Origin: Paenibacillaceae bacterium
GTDB lineage: Bacteria > Bacillota > Clostridia > Lachnospirales > Lachnospiraceae
Assembly: GCA_015057715.1 (NCBI GenBank)
Contig: SVDS01000005.1
Span: 18,585-82,584 of the forward strand
Reading direction: 5' to 3'
DNA: 64,000 nt
The translations under genes were made by a program, and so were the position numbers. The stretch's first letter is position 1, and the number at the start of each line of letters is the position of its first letter. Below are positions 19,719 to 39,702 of this stretch, in pieces. The notes under the pieces were generated by a model that saw only the letters and a program-made list of their open reading frames with translations, was not told the origin of the DNA and did not search any database.

Positions 19719-19732
19719 GAATATACCAATCG

Positions 19733-19778
19733 ATAAAGTATTTTTAACTATTGCAGATAAAAATACTTTATTTTTTTG
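19733..19778 (+). terminator. Intrinsic terminator of the polysaccharide operon
   Basis: ATAAAGTATTTTTA (19733-19746) pairs with TAAAAATACTTTAT (19758-19771), loop 11 bases, followed by a T-run. Confidence 0.85.
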
Positions 19779-19804
19779 TCTTTTTTTACCAATGAATTAT
19801 ACTA
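19776..19804 (+). promoter_or_regulatory. Tentative promoter of the first allantoinase operon
   Basis: TTTGTC about 17 bases before TATACT (near 19799-19804), overlapping the end of the preceding terminator T-run. The -35 is poor. A TATAAT (19815-19820) and a segment AATAAATAGC (19832-19841) shared with the allD promoter spacer also lie in this leader, so the true start is uncertain. Confidence 0.3.
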
Positions 19805-19889
19805 TGGTGAAAACTATAATGCAAATAACACAATAAATAGCTGGTATTTATTAAAAAAGTAAACAAAATGCAAAAGAGGAGGTATCAGA

Positions 19890-21248
19890 ATGGATAAAAG
19901 CATGGATCTTGTCATTAGAAATGGAGTGGTTGTTTTTCCGGATCGTGTGGAAAAGGCTGATATTGGGGTAAGTGACGGGAAAATTGTGGAGATATCACAG
20001 GAGATTTCTCAGGATGGAAAAGAAGTCATTGATGCAGCAGGCAAACATATTTTTCCAGCAGCCACCGACGGTCATGTACACTTTGATGATCCGGGAAGAA
20101 CGGAATGGGAAACCATAAAAAATGGCAGCCAGGCACTTGCGGCAGGCGGAGGCGGTGTATTTTTCGATATGCCCTTAAACAGCTCTCCCTGTACACTGGA
20201 CAAAGTAAATTTCGAAAAGAAGCTTGCAATTGCAAAAAGAGATTCTGTCTGCGATTTTGGTCTGTGGGGAGGATTATGTCCCACAAACCTAGACAAAGTG
20301 GAGGAGCTGGCTGAGTGCGGAGTTGTGGGATTTAAAGCGTTTTCCTGTTTCAGCGGAATTGATGAGTTTCCTGGAATTGATGACTATACTGCTTACAAAG
20401 GTATGGAGAAATTAAAGAAACTAAACCTTCCGCTTATGGTTCACTGTGAAAACGACGGTATCACAGGAAAAGTAACCGGTTTAAAAAATGCGCAGAACAA
20501 AACTGGAGTGAAGGATTACTTTGAGGCTCATGCACCCATTACAGAAATCGAAAGCATTTCCAGAATGATCACCTTCGCAGAAGAAACAGGCTGTAAGCTG
20601 ATTATTGCCCATGTCAGTACGGCAAAGGGGGTGGAACTGGTTACAGAGGCAAGAAAACGGGGTGTTGATATCTCCTGTGAAACAATTGGTCATTATCTGA
20701 TTCTCACAGATGAGGATGTAGAAAGACTGGGTACTCTTGGAAAATGTTCTCCTCCAATCCGCGACGCAGCAAACCAGCAGAAAATGTGGGGGAAATTGTT
20801 TAATGGTGAAATCACATTTATTTCATCCGACCATTCTCCCAGCGATCCTAAATTAAAAGAAAAAGAGTTCATGAAAGCCTGGGGAGGCATCTCTGGCTGT
20901 CAGAGTACACTTCCCGCTGTTTTAACCCATGGTTACCACGATAGAAAGCTGATGCTTACAAAGGTTGCAGCGCTTACTGCCTCCAATGTAAATGAAGTAT
21001 TTCATATCGAAGGAAAAGGGAAGATTCAGACAGGTTTTGATGCGGATTTTGCAATTGTTGATCTGGATAAAGAATATGTGCTGGATGCAGATTCTTTATT
21101 CTATTTACATAAAGTAAGTCCCTATGTGGGCATGAAGTTCAAGGGTCAGGTTACACAGACGATTGTGCGGGGAAGAACTATCTTTCAGGATGGTAAGATT
21201 ACAGCCGTTTCAGGCGGAAAGCTGATCACTCCTGCCAGAATGTCGTAA
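19890..21248 (+). CDS. allB: Allantoinase
   Basis: Opens allantoin to allantoate. The 452-residue amidohydrolase carries the binuclear metal site: GHVHFDDPG (His62 and His64), the likely carboxylated lysine in VGFKAFSC (about residue 149), VHCEND, IIAHVS and SSDHSPS. The blocks GKCSPPIRD, MKAWGGISG and HKVSPYVG match the enterobacterial AllB closely, so this one is the better allantoinase candidate of the two in the window. AGAGGAGG precedes the ATG. The permease gene follows after 27 bases, making a two-gene unit. Confidence 0.9.
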   Translation: MDKSMDLVIRNGVVVFPDRVEKADIGVSDGKIVEISQEISQDGKEVIDAAGKHIFPAATDGHVHFDDPGRTEWETIKNGSQALAAGGGGVFFDMPLNSSPCTLDKVNFEKKLAIAKRDSVCDFGLWGGLCPTNLDKVEELAECGVVGFKAFSCFSGIDEFPGIDDYTAYKGMEKLKKLNLPLMVHCENDGITGKVTGLKNAQNKTGVKDYFEAHAPITEIESISRMITFAEETGCKLIIAHVSTAKGVELVTEARKRGVDISCETIGHYLILTDEDVERLGTLGKCSPPIRDAANQQKMWGKLFNGEITFISSDHSPSDPKLKEKEFMKAWGGISGCQSTLPAVLTHGYHDRKLMLTKVAALTASNVNEVFHIEGKGKIQTGFDADFAIVDLDKEYVLDADSLFYLHKVSPYVGMKFKGQVTQTIVRGRTIFQDGKITAVSGGKLITPARMS

Positions 21249-23546: not shown

Positions 23547-23661
23547 TTGTTTTCTCCTTTTACTGATAGTATAAATTTTAGCAAAAAGCTGAAAAAAACA
23601 CAAATACAATAAAATAAATTATACATCTTGGACAAAAATTCCTGCGAAATTTTACCTCATT

Positions 23662-23690
23662 TTGCATTGTTTTCCCAGGCATTATTTAAT
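23662..23690 (+). promoter_or_regulatory. Candidate promoter of the second allantoinase gene
   Basis: TTGCAT (23662-23667) and TTTAAT (23685-23690), spacer 17. Downstream at about 23729 a TTAACCAG sequence (reverse CTGGTTAA) resembles the PucR box of Bacillus subtilis with one mismatch. Confidence 0.45.
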
Positions 23691-23751
23691 AAAATAATGA
23701 AATGTTTCATCAGTCAGTTATCATTCATTAACCAGAAACGGAGGAGAAGGT

Positions 23752-25122
23752 ATGTATGATTTATTAGTAAAAAATGGGAAAATTGTAACAGCGGAGTGTG
23801 TGTTTTCGGGAAACATTGCAGTAAAAGAGGGTAAAATTGCAGCGGTACTTCTTGCAGGTGAAGAGCCAGAAGCAAAAAAAGTAATTGATGCAAAAGGAAA
23901 TTATGTTTTCCCGGGCGCAATTGATACCCATGCACATTTAAATGATCCCGGTTACGAGTGGCGTGAGGATTATGAGCACGGAACTGCCGCAGCTGCAGTA
24001 GGCGGATATACAACCATTATTGATATGCCGCTGCAAAACGAGCCAGCCATGACTAACGCAACTATTTTTGATAAGAAGTATGAAAAGGTATCTCCCAATG
24101 CATATGTGGATTATTGCTTCTGGGGTGGTTTGATTCCTGATAATTTCCAGGATTTAAAGGGGATGGATGAGAAGGGCTGCGTGGCATTTAAATCCTTTAT
24201 CGGCCCCGTTTCTCCTGATTACAGTTCTTTAAATTATGGACAGGTATATGAGGCAATGCAGATCATCCATGAGTTTGACGGACGTGCCGGTTTCCACTGC
24301 GAAGATTTTGCCGCAATAAAGTGGCAGGAACAGAGAATGAAAAAAGAGGGCAGACTGGACTGGAACGGATTTTTAGAATCAAGACCGGTCGTTGCAGAAA
24401 TGGTAGCCACAGTTGATGTGATTGAGCTTGCAAAAGCCACCGGCTGCAAAGCACACATCTGCCACGTAAGCAGTCCTGATGTAGCTCAGAAAATTAAGGA
24501 AGCCCAGCAGGAGGGTTACGATATTACCGCAGAAACCTGTTCTCATTATCTTAGCATGACAGAGGAAGATGTAATTAAGAACGGACCGCTGTTTAAATGC
24601 GCTCCACCTCTGCGTTCCCAGGAAGAAGTGAACAGGCTGTGGACCTATGTGGAGGATGGAACCTTCAGCGGTATTGCAAGTGATCATTCCCCGTGTTCCT
24701 ATGATGAAAAGTTCAAGGAAATTCTGGGTAATAAAATCGAAACTCCATTTGATGTATGGGGAGGAATCAGTGGAATCCAGAGTGGATTTCAGGTAAGCTT
24801 CCATGAAGGCTGTGTAAAACGGGGAATTTCACCATCTGTTCTTGCAACTGCAATGGCAAAGAAACCCGCAGAGGCATTTGGAATCTACGGAAAAAAAGGA
24901 GACATCAGAACCGGATTTGACGCGGATTTCATTATTGTAGATGCAGATAAGGAATGGGAGATAACAGAAGATTCCCTTCTCTATGTAAACAAGATTTCTG
25001 CTTTTGTTGGAATGAAGGGGAAAGGATTGCCGGTCTGCACCATTGTCCGCGGTGAGGTAGTGGCAGAAGACGGAAAAGTTGTAGGAGAAAAAGGATTCGG
25101 AAACCTGGTTAAAAAACTGTAA
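23752..25122 (+). CDS. Second allantoinase/cyclic-ureide amidohydrolase
   Basis: A 456-residue amidohydrolase of the AllB/dihydropyrimidinase group. The metal ligands are intact: DTHAHLNDPG (His60 and His62), VAFKSFIG with the bridging lysine, FHCED, ICHVSSPD and ASDHSPC. Compared with the copy at 19890, the substrate-loop blocks differ (KCAPPLRSQEE, FDVWGGISGIQSG, NKISAFVG), so it may act on the other allantoin enantiomer or on a related ring such as hydantoin; this is inference. GGAGGAGAAG precedes the ATG. It is a single-gene unit ended by a perfect 9-bp stem. Confidence 0.85.
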   Translation: MYDLLVKNGKIVTAECVFSGNIAVKEGKIAAVLLAGEEPEAKKVIDAKGNYVFPGAIDTHAHLNDPGYEWREDYEHGTAAAAVGGYTTIIDMPLQNEPAMTNATIFDKKYEKVSPNAYVDYCFWGGLIPDNFQDLKGMDEKGCVAFKSFIGPVSPDYSSLNYGQVYEAMQIIHEFDGRAGFHCEDFAAIKWQEQRMKKEGRLDWNGFLESRPVVAEMVATVDVIELAKATGCKAHICHVSSPDVAQKIKEAQQEGYDITAETCSHYLSMTEEDVIKNGPLFKCAPPLRSQEEVNRLWTYVEDGTFSGIASDHSPCSYDEKFKEILGNKIETPFDVWGGISGIQSGFQVSFHEGCVKRGISPSVLATAMAKKPAEAFGIYGKKGDIRTGFDADFIIVDADKEWEITEDSLLYVNKISAFVGMKGKGLPVCTIVRGEVVAEDGKVVGEKGFGNLVKKL

Positions 25123-26020: not shown

Positions 26021-26107
26021 TGTAGTAATTCCTTTCTGTTTTTGATAAAATTACATGAATGTAAGATCATTATAACTGTTAAAAAATAAACAAGCAGGGG
26101 AAAAGTG

Positions 26108-26132
26108 GATAAAACGGGAACCGTATTTTATC
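26108..26132. promoter_or_regulatory. 25-bp dyad operator upstream of the allE promoter
   Basis: GATAAAA (26108-26114) and TTTTATC (26126-26132) form a dyad centred on CGGGAACCG. It is preceded by AAAGTG and ends 11 bases before the -35. An equal-length dyad at the same distance occurs before allD (27147-27171), which supports an activator site, plausibly for the PucR regulator at 35592. Confidence 0.55.
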
Positions 26133-26143
26133 TCATAATATAA

Positions 26144-26172
26144 TTGAAATACTTTATAATACCTGCCATAAT
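26144..26172 (+). promoter_or_regulatory. Promoter of allE
   Basis: TTGAAA (26144-26149) and CATAAT (26167-26172), spacer 17, with GC before the -10. Both hexamers and the spacing are identical to the allD promoter. TTGGTTGA (about 26188) downstream resembles the B. subtilis PucR box. Confidence 0.6.
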
Positions 26173-26233
26173 AAACAGGTATAAATTGGTTGACTGAATG
26201 AATATGACCTAATGGAAAGTGAGGAGCCTTATT

Positions 26234-27022
26234 ATGAGTTATTTAAACGGGCAGACAGGATACCGTGATGACTTATTAGCCACCAGATCCGTCGTTAAAA
26301 AAGAAAATTATGTTTTAATTGAGCCGGACGGAATTGTAAAAAATGCGATTCCAGGATATGAAAAGTGTGATGTCACGATTCTTGGCTCTCCTCAGATGGG
26401 AGCTTCCTTTGCGGATTACTTAGTGACAGTCCACGAAGGCGGAAAGAATCCTGCATTCGGCGGAGAAGGACTGGAATCATTCATTTATGTAATGGAAGGT
26501 TCCATTACGGTTAAAAATGCGGACAAAGAAGAGACACTGACAGAGGGCGGATATATTTATTCCCCTGCCAGCAACACCATTTCTTTTGAGAATGCGGGAA
26601 AAGAGGATGCAAAGCTCTTTGCCTATAAACGCAGATATGACGAGCTGGCTGGATACAGCGCCTACACTGTAGTGGGGAATGCAAATGACCTTCCATGGAT
26701 TCCGTATGAAGGTATGGAGAACTGTTATATCCGTGATTTCCTGCCTGCAGCAGAGAATTTTGGATTTGATATGAATATGCATATTCTGAAATTCCATTTA
26801 GGTGCATCCCACGGCTACATAGAGACTCATATTCAGGAGCATGGCATGTATTTCCTTACGGGAAGTGCGATGTACAGACTGGATAATGACTGGGTTCCGG
26901 TGAAAAAGGGTGATTATGTGTTTATGGATGCTTATTGCCCACAGGCCTGCTACGCAGTAGGACGGGAAGAAGATTTAACTTATATCTATTCCAAGGACTG
27001 CAACAGGGATGTAAAGCTGTAA
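26234..27022 (+). CDS. allE: (S)-ureidoglycine aminohydrolase
   Basis: Releases ammonia from ureidoglycine to give (S)-ureidoglycolate. The 262-residue bicupin matches AllE/YlbA: an N-terminal cupin (GGEGLESFIYVMEGSITVKN, about 75-95) and a C-terminal one with the metal ligands in GYIETHIQEHGMYFLTGSAMYRL. The conserved end VFMDAYCPQACYAVG is also present. The frame opens at a GTG (26219), but GAGGAG lies 8 bases before the ATG at 26234, which begins the family-like MSYLNGQTGYRDDLLATRSVV. It is monocistronic with its own promoter and a strong terminator. Confidence 0.93.
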   Translation: MSYLNGQTGYRDDLLATRSVVKKENYVLIEPDGIVKNAIPGYEKCDVTILGSPQMGASFADYLVTVHEGGKNPAFGGEGLESFIYVMEGSITVKNADKEETLTEGGYIYSPASNTISFENAGKEDAKLFAYKRRYDELAGYSAYTVVGNANDLPWIPYEGMENCYIRDFLPAAENFGFDMNMHILKFHLGASHGYIETHIQEHGMYFLTGSAMYRLDNDWVPVKKGDYVFMDAYCPQACYAVGREEDLTYIYSKDCNRDVKL

Positions 27023-27065
27023 CCAATGTTTTTGATGTTCTTCCTAAGAATTTTTATAGATACAA

Positions 27066-27114
27066 AAAACTGGTTTTCCGGTGTCTGATTCATACCGGAA
27101 AGCCAGTTTTTTTA
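27066..27114 (+). terminator. Intrinsic terminator of allE
   Basis: AAAACTGG-TTTCCGGT (27066-27082) pairs ACCGGAAA-CCAGTTTT (27094-27110) with one mismatch, loop 11 bases, then TTTTTTTA. Confidence 0.88.
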
Positions 27115-27146
27115 TTTATTGATTTTTCCAAAATACCACGAAAGTG

Positions 27147-27171
27147 GATAAAAATCAAACCTACATTTATC
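27147..27171. promoter_or_regulatory. 25-bp dyad operator upstream of the allD promoter
   Basis: GATAAA (27147-27152) and TTTATC (27166-27171), preceded by AAAGTG, ending 11 bases before the -35. Length, flanking AAAGTG and distance equal those of the dyad upstream of allE. Confidence 0.55.
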
Positions 27172-27182
27172 TAGTTATTTGA

Positions 27183-27211
27183 TTGAAACGGGGTCAATAA
27201 ATAGCCATAAT
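27183..27211 (+). promoter_or_regulatory. Promoter of the allD operon
   Basis: TTGAAA (27183-27188) and CATAAT (27206-27211), spacer 17, same hexamers as the allE promoter. It would drive 27286-35438 as one transcript. Confidence 0.6.
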
Positions 27212-27285
27212 AGATAAAGAAAAGCTGGTTGGCAGCTATTTGCTGAATAAAAATAACCATAAATCAGGAAGGCGAGGAAGGATAA

Positions 27286-28338
27286 ATGAAACTTGTAAGA
27301 GCTGAATTAAAAGACTTGATGAAGAAAAAATTAATGAGAGCTGGTTTAAAAGAAGATCATGCTGATATCACAGCAGAGATCCTTACATGGTCAGATGAGA
27401 GAGGATATCACTCCCATGGAGCAGTAAGAGTGGAGTATTACTGTGAAAGAATTTCAAAGGGAGGCATTACCGTAGATCCTCATTTTGAATTCAAAGAGAC
27501 AGGTCCCTGTTCAGCAATCTTTGAAGGTGACAATGGCTGCGGATATGTGGCTGCCACAAAAGCTATGGAACAGGCAATTGAAATGGCAAAGAAAAACGGC
27601 ATTGCAGTAGTCGGTGTCCGCAACATATCCCACAGCGGCGCTCTTGGTTATTATACAGAAATGGCAGCAGACCAGAACCTGGTTGCAATTTCCTTCTGCC
27701 AGTCAGATCCAATGGCAGTACCAACTGGCGGCACAGAACCATATTACGGAACAAATCCAATTTCCTTTGCAGCTCCTACCGCAGACGAGAGAAAAGTGGT
27801 ATTTGACATGGCAACAACCGTACAGGCGTGGGGGAAAATTCTGGACAAACGATCCAGAGGAGAATCCATTCCGGATACATGGGCTGTAGATGAAAAAGGT
27901 AATCCGGTTACAGATCCAAACAAAGTAAATGCACTTGTTCCCATTGCCGGTGCAAAGGGTTATGGTCTTATGATGATGGTTGATATTTTTTCCGGTATTC
28001 TCTTAGGCGTACCCTTTGGCAAGCATGTAAGCTCCATGTATCATGACTGCTCAAAAGGCAGAGAACTGGGTCATATGCATATTGTTATGGATCCAAAGCG
28101 TTTTACAAACATCGAAGAGTTTATGAAAAATATGTCCGTTACCTGTGATGAATTAAATGCAATCACACCGGCGGACGGATATGACAAAGTTTATTATCCA
28201 GGCGAAAGAGCCGTTATGAGAAGAGATAAATACTATAACAATGGCGGAATTGAAATTGTAGATGCAATCTATGAGTACTTAAAGAGTGACGCCATTCATT
28301 TTAACCGATATGACCACAAGAACCGATTTGCAGAATAA
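27286..28338 (+). CDS. allD: Ureidoglycolate dehydrogenase
   Basis: Oxidises (S)-ureidoglycolate to oxalurate with NAD(P). The 350-residue protein belongs to the Ldh2 family of malate/L-lactate-type dehydrogenases (PF02615), unlike Rossmann enzymes: VRAELKDLMKKKLMRAGLKEDHADITAEIL, SDERGYHSHGAVRVEYYCERI, GVRNISHSGALGYYTEMA with the catalytic histidine near residue 115, GTNPISFAAPT and AKGYGLMMMVDIFSGIL. Those match AllD. Family members also reduce other 2-oxo acids, but the location immediately before the fused FdrA gene makes AllD the best reading. GGCGAGGAAGG precedes the ATG. Confidence 0.9.
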   Translation: MKLVRAELKDLMKKKLMRAGLKEDHADITAEILTWSDERGYHSHGAVRVEYYCERISKGGITVDPHFEFKETGPCSAIFEGDNGCGYVAATKAMEQAIEMAKKNGIAVVGVRNISHSGALGYYTEMAADQNLVAISFCQSDPMAVPTGGTEPYYGTNPISFAAPTADERKVVFDMATTVQAWGKILDKRSRGESIPDTWAVDEKGNPVTDPNKVNALVPIAGAKGYGLMMMVDIFSGILLGVPFGKHVSSMYHDCSKGRELGHMHIVMDPKRFTNIEEFMKNMSVTCDELNAITPADGYDKVYYPGERAVMRRDKYYNNGGIEIVDAIYEYLKSDAIHFNRYDHKNRFAE

Positions 28339-35438: not shown

Positions 35439-35481
35439 ATGAGCCGGGGGGCAATGAGTCGTTTGTATACAGCAGGGAACA

Positions 35482-35509
35482 GCCGGGCAGGAAAGCCCGG
35501 CCTTTCTTG
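35482..35509 (+). terminator. Terminator of the allD-allC operon
   Basis: GCCGGGC (35482-35488) pairs GCCCGGC (35495-35501), loop 6 bases, followed by CTTTCTTG. It lies inside the upstream in-frame extension of the pucR frame, which argues against a start at 35439. Confidence 0.65.
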
Positions 35510-35537
35510 CATGAACTACCCAGTTACTGCTGCATTA

Positions 35538-35546
35538 TGTTATACT
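35538..35546 (+). promoter_or_regulatory. Extended -10 promoter of the PucR-family gene
   Basis: TGT immediately before TATACT (35541-35546), with no good -35 at 16-18 bases, about 46 bases before the chosen start. Confidence 0.4.
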
Positions 35547-35591
35547 GATCAGGGAGAAAAAATAATAAGAAGGGGCTGTGCAAAGAAGAAA

Positions 35592-37256
35592 ATGAAATTT
35601 ACAGTAGAAGAATTTCTCAAAACGGAGAACTTGGGAAAAATGACTCTGATTTGCGGAGAGAGTGGCTTGAGGAAAGAAATTAAGGGCGCAACAATCATTG
35701 AGGCACCGGATATTGTTAAATTTATTAATGGAGGGGAACTGCTGCTGACCGGTTTATATGCATTCAATTCCTGTACCATTGAAGAATTTAAATTCTATAT
35801 TTCCGAGCTTGAGAAAAAGAATGTCAGCGGACTGATTTTAAAAAAAAGAAAACTGGTAGAAGGTGTGGAAAGCAAGATTGTGCTTCTTCGGGAATACGCA
35901 GAAAACTTTGGGATTCCATTGATTGAAGTCTCTTTTGAAGTCTCGTTCCAGACCATTATGTCACTGGTCATGGAACGGCTATTTAATGAGGAAGTAACGA
36001 AACTTAAGTATTATAAAACCACTCATGATAATTTTATGGCGTTATCCCTTTCCAATAATTTTAAGAAAAATCCGGTAGGGGATATTCTTGATATGTTAAA
36101 TAAGCTGATCCGCAACCCCATTGCCCTTTATAATCAGGATATGTCCTGTTATGCAGCAACAGGCGGTGAGGAATATGAATTTGAATTATCCCCTAAGGCA
36201 GCTGAGTTTGATCCCGGTATTTTCTCTAATTATGAGTATACCAGGCAGGAAGGGGAATACCCCTGTTACGTTGTCAGAATGAATCTGAATGTGGGAATAC
36301 AGATGTTTCTTGTTATAACAGAAAAATACGATAAATTTAATATGATGGACTGCATTGCGGTGGAGAATGCCATCGTTGCCCTTCAATATGAATTCTCAAG
36401 AAAGTTTGCCGTATCAAAACTGGAGAAAAAGTACCAGCATGACTTATTAAATAATATTCTCAACGGGAAAGTAACCTCTGCAGATGAACTGAAAAAGAAT
36501 GCCAGTCTCCTTGGTATGGACCCCAATGGCCATTACCGTGTGATTGTCTTTGGAGTCACTTACGAAGGAAGCACCCAGAAGAAAATGAATGAGAAGCTTC
36601 AGCAGATCAACTGGCTGGAGGATGTGGTAAGACAGAGACTGACCGATGTAAAAGTACATACGGATATGGACAAGGTGGTTGCCATAAAAACTGCCAATCC
36701 CAACCGGACTCAGGCTGAGTACCGCAAAGATTTAAAAGAGATGTGGAGCAAAGTTCAGGCAGGTATGACGCAGCATAACAAGAAGCTTGTGGTAAAGGCA
36801 GGTGCAGGCAAGATTGTAGAGGGAATTATGCAGCTGGAGGGATCCTATAAAGAGGCAGCAGATGCATTTTCCTTTATCGATATAGCAGCAGATATCTCAT
36901 ACGAAGGAAATGCCTATATTATGATGTTTTCAGATCTGGGAATCTTTAAGCTGTTATGTCAGGTTGATGATCCGGCTTTACTGATGGAATACGTCCCTGA
37001 ATCCCTTCAGAAGCTGTTTAACTATAAAAAACCTCAGCAGGAAGATCTTATTATAACGTTGAAAACTTATTTAAACTATAATCAGAATCTTTCTAAAACG
37101 GCTCAGGACTTATTTGTGCATTATAAAACAGCTGCATACCGGATTGGCAAAATTGCAAAGATAACGGGAATCGATTTTGATAATGCCAATGAAAGGCTGG
37201 CAGTGAGAATCGGGCTTGTTGTTTATCGAATGATTGAAAATTATAATAAGAAATAG
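35592..37256 (+). CDS. PucR-family transcriptional regulator
   Basis: A 554-residue regulator. The N-terminal PucR domain (PF07905) covers about 5-125 (LKTENLGKMTLICGESGLRKEIKGATIIEAPDIVKFINGGELLLTG), a CdaR/GGDEF-like middle follows, and the C-terminal PucR helix-turn-helix (PF13556) is about 485-545 (LKTYLNYNQNLSKTAQDLFVHYKTAAYRIGKI). PucR of Bacillus subtilis activates purine/allantoin catabolism genes, so this is the likely activator of the locus, with allantoin, allantoate or ureidoglycolate as inducer. I start at ATG 35592; the 51 extra codons upstream span a terminator and the promoter. It probably binds the paired dyads before allE and allD (inference). Confidence 0.88.
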   Translation: MKFTVEEFLKTENLGKMTLICGESGLRKEIKGATIIEAPDIVKFINGGELLLTGLYAFNSCTIEEFKFYISELEKKNVSGLILKKRKLVEGVESKIVLLREYAENFGIPLIEVSFEVSFQTIMSLVMERLFNEEVTKLKYYKTTHDNFMALSLSNNFKKNPVGDILDMLNKLIRNPIALYNQDMSCYAATGGEEYEFELSPKAAEFDPGIFSNYEYTRQEGEYPCYVVRMNLNVGIQMFLVITEKYDKFNMMDCIAVENAIVALQYEFSRKFAVSKLEKKYQHDLLNNILNGKVTSADELKKNASLLGMDPNGHYRVIVFGVTYEGSTQKKMNEKLQQINWLEDVVRQRLTDVKVHTDMDKVVAIKTANPNRTQAEYRKDLKEMWSKVQAGMTQHNKKLVVKAGAGKIVEGIMQLEGSYKEAADAFSFIDIAADISYEGNAYIMMFSDLGIFKLLCQVDDPALLMEYVPESLQKLFNYKKPQQEDLIITLKTYLNYNQNLSKTAQDLFVHYKTAAYRIGKIAKITGIDFDNANERLAVRIGLVVYRMIENYNKK

Positions 37257-37260
37257 ACTT

Positions 37261-37305
37261 CAAAAGCGGTTTATCTAAGATGGATAAACTGCTTTTGCTT
37301 TTTTG
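37261..37305 (+). terminator. Terminator of the PucR-family gene
   Basis: CAAAAGCGGTTTATC (37261-37275) pairs GATAAACTGCTTTTG (37283-37297) with one mismatch, then CTTTTTTG. Confidence 0.85.
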
Positions 37306-37423
37306 TCAGAATGCTCCGATGCAATCTGTGAATAAATTATCTATACTGGCTATGATAGAAAGAATCCGGTAAGAAAAAGAAGTCATACAGTGAAGCATGG
37401 GTTACGAAAGAAGGGAGAAGATG

Positions 37424-38314
37424 ATGTACAGAATATTAAAAGCACAAAAGCTGGCTGATAAAATATACCTTATGGACGTGTATGCGCCCCGCATTGCGGC
37501 CAATTGCCAGCCTGGACAGTTTGTAATTGTTAAGATGGGAGAGAATGGGGAAAGAATCCCTCTTACTATCTGTGATTATAACCGACTGGAAGGAACAATT
37601 ACCATTGTATTTCAGGAAGTGGGAGCTTCCACTGTAAAGATGGCAGAATTAAAAGAAAACGACAGCTTCCGGGATTTTGCAGGACCGTTAGGAAATCCTT
37701 CTGATTTAGTCCATGAAGATCTGGAAGAATTAAAACATAAAAAACTCCTTTTTGTTGCGGGAGGGGTGGGAGCAGCACCGGTTTATCCTCAGGTGAAGTG
37801 GCTGCATGAGCATGGAATTGAGGCAGATGTTATCATCGGAGCAAAGACAAAGGATATGCTTATACTGGAAGATGAGCTGAAAAAGGTCTCAGGTAATCTG
37901 TATGTGACAACCGATGATGGTTCTTACGGAGGAACCGGCCTTGTAACAAACGTAATAGAGGATTTAATCCAGAACCAGTGTAAGAAGTATGATGCCTGTG
38001 TGACAATCGGACCCATGATTATGATGAAATTTGTATGTCTGCTGACCAGAAAGTATGATTTAAATACTGTTGTCAGCATGAATCCGGTTATGGTGGACGG
38101 CACAGGGATGTGCGGTGCATGCCGTCTCATGGTGGGAGATCAGGTTCGTTTTGCCTGTATAGACGGTCCGGAATTTGACGGACATCTGGTGGATTTTGAC
38201 CAGGCAATCAAAAGAAGCCAGATGTATAAAACAGAGGAAGGACGTGTCCTGTTAAAACAGCAGGAAGGAAACACACATCACGGCGGCTGTGGGAACTGCG
38301 GAGGAGATGACTAA
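37424..38314 (+). CDS. nfnA: NAD-dependent ferredoxin:NADP oxidoreductase, small subunit
   Basis: A 296-residue FNR-family protein, the small subunit of the electron-bifurcating NfnAB transhydrogenase (sulfide dehydrogenase subunit type). It shows the FAD site (GQFVIVKMGENGERIPLTICDYN), NAD-binding GGVGAAPVYPQVKWLHEHG, and the dihydroorotate-dehydrogenase-like [2Fe-2S] cysteines in GTGMCGACRLMVGDQVRFACIDGPEFDGHLVDF. A further Cys pair (HGGCGNCGGDD) ends the protein. ATG 37424 is 6 bases from AAGGGAG; ATG 37421 and 37397 are in-frame alternatives. Its stop is coupled to the start of nfnB. Confidence 0.9.
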   Translation: MYRILKAQKLADKIYLMDVYAPRIAANCQPGQFVIVKMGENGERIPLTICDYNRLEGTITIVFQEVGASTVKMAELKENDSFRDFAGPLGNPSDLVHEDLEELKHKKLLFVAGGVGAAPVYPQVKWLHEHGIEADVIIGAKTKDMLILEDELKKVSGNLYVTTDDGSYGGTGLVTNVIEDLIQNQCKKYDACVTIGPMIMMKFVCLLTRKYDLNTVVSMNPVMVDGTGMCGACRLMVGDQVRFACIDGPEFDGHLVDFDQAIKRSQMYKTEEGRVLLKQQEGNTHHGGCGNCGGDD

Positions 38315-39702
38315 TGGCTGATATGTTAAAAAAAGTACCTGTCAAAGAGCAGGAAGCAAAGGTTCGTGTTACAAATTTTGAAGAGGTCTGTGAAGGATAC
38401 AATCAGGAAGAAGCGGTCAGGGAAGCGTCCAGATGTCTCAATTGTAAAAATGCAAAATGCATTCAGGGCTGTCCTGTAACAATTGATATTCCCGGCTTTA
38501 TTAAAGAAATACAGGAAGGTAATATAGAAGAAGCATATAAGGTAATCAGCAAATCTTCTGCCCTGCCTGCAGTCTGCGGGCGTGTCTGCCCCCAGGAAAC
38601 CCAGTGTGAAGGAAAATGCATCCGTGGGATTAAGGGGGAGCCTGTTTCCATTGGTAAGTTAGAACGGTTTGCAGCAGATTATGCGCTGGAACATGACATC
38701 AGGCCGGAAGCTTCAAAGGAGAAAAACGGACATAAGGTGGCTGTGATCGGATCTGGCCCCTCAGGTCTTACCTGTGCCGGAGATTTGGCAAAACAGGGAT
38801 ATGATGTGACAGTTTTTGAGGCACTTCATGAATTAGGAGGGGTGCTTGTCTATGGAATTCCGGAGTTTCGTCTCCCAAAAGAGAAAGTCGTAGCGAAAGA
38901 AATTGAAAAGGTAAAAGGACTGGGGGTAAAATTCGAGACCAACGTGGTCATTGGAAAATCAACGACAATTGATCAGCTGTTTGAAGATGAGGGATTTGAA
39001 GCTGTTTACATAGGCTCTGGCGCCGGACTTCCAATGTTTATGGGAATTCCGGGAGAAAATGCAAACGGTGTTTTCTCCGCCAATGAATATTTAACAAGAG
39101 CCAATCTTATGAAAGCATTCGATGAAAACTATGACACCCCTATATTTGCGGGTACAAACGTTGCCGTAGTAGGCGGTGGCAACGTTGCCATGGATGCAGC
39201 CAGAGTAGCAGCAAGGCTTGGTGCCTGTGTACACGTTGTTTACAGAAGAAGTGAGGCAGAGCTTCCAGCCAGAGCGGAGGAAGTTCATCATGCCAGAGAA
39301 GAAGGCATTATCTTTGACCTTTTAACCAATCCAAAAGAGATACTTGTGGATGACAACGGTTATGTAAAAGGCATGAAGGTTGTTAAGATGCAGCTTGGAG
39401 AATCAGATGCATCAGGAAGAAGACGTCCGGAGGAAATACCGGGATCGGAATATGAAATAAAAACAGATACGGTAATCATGTCTCTTGGTACCTCACCCAA
39501 TCCGTTAATTTCTACCACTACAAAAGGTCTGGATATTAACCGGTGGAAATGTATTATTGCAGATGAAGAAAACGGACAGACCACAAAAGAAGGTGTGTTT
39601 GCAGGCGGTGATGCCGTTACGGGAGCGGCGACTGTTATTCTGGCAATGGGAGCAGGAAAGGCCGGTGCAAAAGGGATTGATGAATATATAAAAAGTAAAT
39701 AA
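38314..39702 (+). CDS. nfnB: NAD-dependent ferredoxin:NADP oxidoreductase, large subunit
   Basis: A 462-residue flavoprotein, NfnB (often annotated as homotetrameric glutamate synthase small chain GltA). Two [4Fe-4S] clusters are formed by the N-terminal cysteines CLNCKNAKCIQGCPV and CGRVCPQETQCEGKC (about 42-95). Then come FAD-binding VAVIGSGPSGLTCAGDLAKQGYDVTVFE, NADP-binding VAVVGGGNVAMDAARVAARLG and the C-terminal GVFAGGDAVTGAATVILAMGAGK. With NfnA it couples NADH plus reduced ferredoxin to formation of two NADPH. No glutamate synthase large subunit lies near, which supports the Nfn reading. Confidence 0.9.
   Translation: MADMLKKVPVKEQEAKVRVTNFEEVCEGYNQEEAVREASRCLNCKNAKCIQGCPVTIDIPGFIKEIQEGNIEEAYKVISKSSALPAVCGRVCPQETQCEGKCIRGIKGEPVSIGKLERFAADYALEHDIRPEASKEKNGHKVAVIGSGPSGLTCAGDLAKQGYDVTVFEALHELGGVLVYGIPEFRLPKEKVVAKEIEKVKGLGVKFETNVVIGKSTTIDQLFEDEGFEAVYIGSGAGLPMFMGIPGENANGVFSANEYLTRANLMKAFDENYDTPIFAGTNVAVVGGGNVAMDAARVAARLGACVHVVYRRSEAELPARAEEVHHAREEGIIFDLLTNPKEILVDDNGYVKGMKVVKMQLGESDASGRRRPEEIPGSEYEIKTDTVIMSLGTSPNPLISTTTKGLDINRWKCIIADEENGQTTKEGVFAGGDAVTGAATVILAMGAGKAGAKGIDEYIKSK

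Follow-up and report, generated by a model that had tools for sequence, protein, structure and literature searches.

A dyad-promoter module in fixed register, a predicted PucR operator, at five promoters of an anaerobic ureide cluster in a Lacrimispora-like bacterium

In the window (the whole stretch of 64,000 nucleotides that was analysed) five promoters of a ureide cluster carry the same module in exact register: a 25-bp dyad, 11 nt, a 6-nt -35 element, 17 nt and a 6-nt -10 element. Judging from the sequence, we consider it very probable that this module serves a local PucR regulon as its operator-promoter unit, with a PucR-family activator that would bind the dyad.

The host is a Lacrimispora-like bacterium, the AllE of the 64-kb window being 98-99% identical to Lacrimispora AllE. 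The cluster is one for anaerobic ureide (allantoin) catabolism, and starts with allB1, a purine/allantoin-type permease, allH, allB2, an esterase, allE and allD. These are followed by a fused FdrA/AllFG-like protein, a carbamate kinase, an L-lactate-type permease, allC and, as the last gene, pucR, see Table 1. In E. coli AllFGH is the oxamic transcarbamylase (PMC11326118). Among the cluster ORFs run against Pfam, the sole regulator is pucR (E-values 3e-23 for the PucR domain, 4e-12 for the GGDEF-like domain and 7e-18 for HTH_30), and its true start is probably near 35592. No gene for a LysR-type AllS or an IclR-type AllR was seen among the cluster proteins scanned, which are a subset of the ORFs, and an Rfam search of the window gave no match, hence no known RNA element. 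In the complete genome of Lacrimispora xylanisolvens ASCUSBR21 (L094) frame breaks interrupt all three of allE, allD and pucR, a result of either sequencing error or decay; the genes are intact in close relatives.

Before allE and allD, the first-pass annotation had placed two TTGAAA-17-CATAAT promoters, each preceded by AAAGTG and a 25-bp dyad that ends 11 bases before the -35. The promoters are correct in coordinates and sequence, and the upstream arrangement is exact at both. The spacing of N12 given for the dyad arms is wrong, as the motif reads AAAGTGGATAAA-N13-TTTATC. The related pattern AAAGTGGATAAAA...TTTATC has 2 matches in the window and 0 in 100 shuffles. The duplication of the module, claimed for these two promoters, is real, but the count was too low by three copies and a further element shared by allE and allD was missed. 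This third element contains TGGTTG and follows the -10 after 13-14 nt. Three orphan allE genes in other genomes (L046, L048, L049), outside any ureide cluster, have neither the dyad nor the downstream element.

Outside the named motifs the allE and allD promoters are alike at 34 of 71 positions (48%), while other promoter pairs reach 27-39% identity (permutation p 5e-5 for the excess). Because the likeness extends beyond the motifs and includes TGGTTG at the same place, an old duplication seems likely, or else an extra shared constraint. The earlier remark that this is not a simple recent duplication is fair.

Since a strong terminator separates allE from allD, allD needs a promoter of its own. 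In most relatives allD lies close behind allE and has no dyad of its own; these closely spaced genes evidently form one operon. The allD dyad is also found before allD in L042-L045, L047, L050, L052 and L096, Lacrimispora among them. For orthologous allD genes, the motif is present where the gene has its own promoter, and it is present before allE in relatives that carry pucR.

The three further copies stand before allB1, before allB2 and before the operon that follows pucR. The right arm of the allB2 copy, TTTTAC, is weak and the most degenerate of the five. In the stretch 37245-37312 the left arm of the fifth copy coincides with the 3' arm of the pucR terminator hairpin, and in the stretch 19725-19790 the left arm of the allB1 copy does so with the 3' arm of a terminator-like hairpin; in both cases the right dyad arm ends the T tract of the hairpin. 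This overlap could be economy or coincidence, and a hairpin with a T tract could by itself yield GATAAA...TTTGTC at these two places. However, reading the two sites as terminators only was dropped, as the identical register and the relatives spoke against it: dyads that overlap terminators hold their register to the promoter in different genera. In L121-L132, too, the left arm of the operator doubles as the 3' arm of a terminator hairpin lying upstream.

The oxidoreductase operon after pucR is predicted to belong to the PucR regulon. The operon at this place varies by lineage while its promoter is kept (L121-L130): it is NfnAB/GltD-like in Lacrimispora, and an allC-like amidase, an FAD protein and EtfBA elsewhere.

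Table 1. Features of the ureide cluster in the window; operators are predicted.
Feature	Position	Strand	Remarks
Third copy, before allB1	19756..19820	+	GATAAA-N13-TTTGTC, 11 nt, ATGAAT-17-TATAAT
allB1, allantoinase	19890..21248	+	
Fourth copy, before allB2	23631..23695	+	GACAAA-N13-TTTTAC, 11 nt, TTGTTT-17-TAAAAT
allB2, allantoinase paralogue	23752..25122	+	
allE operator, AAAGTG + 25-bp dyad GATAAAACGGGAACCGTATTTTATC	26102..26132	+	AAAGTG 26102-26107, GATAAA-N13-TTTATC 26108-26132; kept in Lacrimispora relatives
allE promoter, TTGAAA-17-CATAAT	26144..26172	+	-35 11 nt after dyad
allE downstream element TTGGTTGACTG	26186..26196	+	degenerate copy of TGGTTGACCA
allE, (S)-ureidoglycine aminohydrolase	26219..27022	+	ATG at 26234 by alignment
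Strong intrinsic terminator, allE-allD gap	27065..27111	+	-33 kcal/mol for enclosing stretch
allD operator, AAAGTG + 25-bp dyad GATAAAAATCAAACCTACATTTATC	27141..27171	+	AAAGTG 27141-27146, dyad 27147-27171
allD promoter, TTGAAA-17-CATAAT	27183..27211	+	-35 11 nt after dyad
allD downstream element CTGGTTGGCAG	27225..27235	+	degenerate; 13-nt spacing as at allE
allD, ureidoglycolate dehydrogenase	27286..28338	+	
pucR	35439..37256	+	PucR (PF07905) + GGDEF-like (PF17853) + C-terminal HTH (PF13556, HTH_30)
Fifth copy, 3' of pucR, before 37397 operon	37283..37347	+	GATAAA-N13-TTTGTC, 11 nt, ATGCAA-17-TATACT
Two-gene oxidoreductase operon	37397..39702	+	DHODB-type Fe-S/NAD subunit + Fer4_20/Pyr_redox_2 subunit, NfnAB/GltD-like

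Next, we searched for a composite pattern, GAYAAA-N13-TTTNNC-N11-WTGNNW-N17-YAWAMT, drawn up to cover the five sites of the window. In the 5.4-Mb genome it has 5 matches, all in the ureide cluster, against 0 for the reversed control; this count is in-sample, as the pattern derives from the same five sites, so the real test lies in other genomes. Allowing one mismatch adds no match in the 5.4 Mb, and 9.6 Mb of Markov-simulated sequence gave 0. The dyad without the promoter part is too unspecific, because 4 of its 6 places in the genome fall on other contigs. One near match, at C204:56726 on a different contig, was discarded, as it lies inside a gene.

We retrieved 55 allE loci and searched the 32 genomes behind them with the composite pattern. 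This gave 40 matches, with 0 in the reversed control, and all matches whose surroundings were read stand either in front of one of the genes allB, allE and allD or immediately behind pucR. The module is present in 19 of the 23 allE-bearing genomes with pucR, the own genome included, and in 0 of the 10 without, one of which has only a distant homologue (p 1e-5; the genomes are related and the counts not fully independent, so that this and the following p-value are guides only). The pucR genomes without an exact match are G312, G319, G322 and G323. Several relatives show a 26-bp (N14) dyad at allE instead of the N13 form.

An unselected sample, one genome per genus from 298 other genera of the family, gave 6 matches in 4 genomes, each at allE or directly after pucR, and 0 in the reversed control. 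This pucR is carried by 8 of the 298 genera, and all 4 genomes with the motif are among these 8 (p 2e-7). A looser search in the same genera, for AGTGGATAAA...TTTATC, gave scattered single matches. The composite pattern and its reversed control each gave 0 matches in 51 additional genomes of the order that belong to other families.

The first-pass suggestion of an activator site, probably for PucR, gains support from the confinement to the pucR cluster, from both genome comparisons and from the upstream position, and PucR appears by far the likeliest binder of the dyad. In this model the PucR activator would bind the 25-bp inverted repeat GAYAAA-N13-TTTRTC and, once bound, would bring RNA polymerase to the promoter lying 11 nt further downstream. 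Five units would come under joint control: allB1-permease, allB2, allE, allD-allFG-allK-permease-allC-pucR and the redox operon after pucR. Because pucR ends the fourth of these units, it would be subject to positive autoregulation. The ligand would probably be allantoin or a downstream ureide.

Taking the start as 7 nt after the -10, the centre of the dyad lies at about -59. This is a class-I-like activator position, and PucR is probably an activator of this kind here. An activator role fits, since the dyad sits just upstream of the -35, and activator dependence fits, since some copies have poor -35 hexamers (ATGAAT, ATGCAA, TTGTTT).

The kind of switch is known, while the predicted site and regulon are new. 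Inverted repeats are also the targets of the PucR-type regulators AdeR (24 bp), PutR (17 bp) and GabR (21 bp), and the GabR sites are immediately upstream of the -35 (PMC7652997). AdeR and PutR of B. subtilis and GabR of C. glutamicum are activators, and the dyad resembles their inverted repeats in form. They differ in their genes and in their ligands (alanine, proline and GABA), and C. glutamicum GabR is without the GGDEF-like domain that the PucR of the window has.

The PucR regulon of B. subtilis is alike in its regulator and in serving purine/allantoin catabolism, but its box differs from the dyad. The consensus of that box, WWWCNTTGGTTAA, is non-palindromic. One-mismatch matches to it number 5 here where 3.7 are expected, which is no enrichment, and none of them has the placement of the dyads. 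The E. coli all cluster, with AllR, AllS and ArcA, has the same enzymes (AllB, AllC, AllD, AllE, AllFGH and AllK), and its allD and allF operons are activated locally (PMC12535856). Its regulators AllS and AllR, however, differ from the PucR-family protein encoded in the window.

The element downstream of the -10 leads to a second, putative regulator. At the allE promoters of relatives (L051-L095) this element is the palindrome TGGTTGACCA, 13-14 nt after the -10. The full palindrome was not found at allE or allD of the window, where TTGGTTGACTG and CTGGTTGGCAG stand instead. In the relatives TGGTTGACCA accompanies a GntR-FCD protein with an XRE-like head, here called X. It is a protein of about 334 residues with GntR HTH and FCD domains, found in many Lachnospiraceae clusters that are not closed by pucR; it lies at L051:13851-14855 (A1) and at 22 other loci, at or near the place of pucR. 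Its N-terminal helices are predicted at 8-78, in a modest model (pLDDT 76, pTM 0.46), and the likeness of this domain to an XRE-type HTH is weak (Pfam 0.009, below the cut-off). With two DNA-binding heads, X would suit operators of two types. The dyad at allE in carriers of X is mostly 26 bp wide, GACAAA-N14-TTTGTC, with less perfect forms in some of them, and is accompanied by the same 11/17 promoter geometry and by TGGTTGACCA. Operators of FadR-type GntR/FCD proteins are TGGTNNACCA-like. The TGGTTGACCA of the relatives looks alike and goes with a GntR-FCD gene, whereas the own genome has only the degenerate remnant and no fused GntR-FCD gene.

It should be considered that the dyad itself might be the site of another regulator, either X or a global nitrogen regulator. 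The similar, wider dyad at allE in X-bearing genomes and the two DNA-binding domains that X appears to possess speak for X, but we regard this reading as unlikely. The X gene was not found in the own genome, where the best match is the GntR-FCD half of another protein (3e-38, where true X genes score about 1e-157 to 1e-187). Further, the N13 module shows no association with X, being present in 7 of 15 genomes with X and 12 of 18 without. Genomes that have both regulators, with pucR distant, carry the N13 GATAAA dyad beside pucR and the N14 type at allE. Five matches confined to one cluster are also ill-suited to a global regulator.

A different possibility is that PucR uses the dyad as a repressor, or alternates there between the two roles like its B. 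subtilis counterpart, which works in both directions (PMC7652997). This is improbable given the positions: each of the five sites is confined to the region upstream of the -35, at a constant distance from it, where activators usually sit, and none overlaps the -10 or the start. It is very hard to believe that no regulator is involved and that AT-rich promoter and terminator sequence, together with shared descent, gave rise to the likeness as a by-product: two dyads do overlap terminators and the allE and allD promoters keep a residual similarity, but simulations and reversed controls of the composite searches gave 0 matches, across genera the matches stay within ureide clusters that have pucR, and the register is identical at promoters otherwise without likeness.

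With PucR as the preferred reader of the dyad, a joint reading for the Lachnospiraceae can be offered tentatively. Here two unrelated regulators, PucR at the dyad around -59 and X at TGGTTGACCA just after the start, would read the same ureide promoters; lineages would keep both or one, and the N13 or N14 width would follow. Lacrimispora would have lost X yet retained a remnant of its operator, and the pucR terminator hairpin would at the same time serve in the operator of the operon that follows. In two relatives with pucR only, L060 and L064, the dyads are of the N14 type and a perfect TGGTCGACCA precedes allE, in L064 also allB; the fused GntR-FCD gene was not found in either. Another FCD regulator may read TGGTCGACCA there; the simple two-regulator picture leaves this pattern unexplained.

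We found no published regulator study for anaerobic ureide catabolism in gut-type Lachnospiraceae. The present analysis provides a specific predicted binding site and a predicted five-operon regulon for a PucR protein in this pathway, which lets sites of the PucR family be predicted beyond Bacillus. It also points to an unusual exchange of regulators within the ureide pathway.
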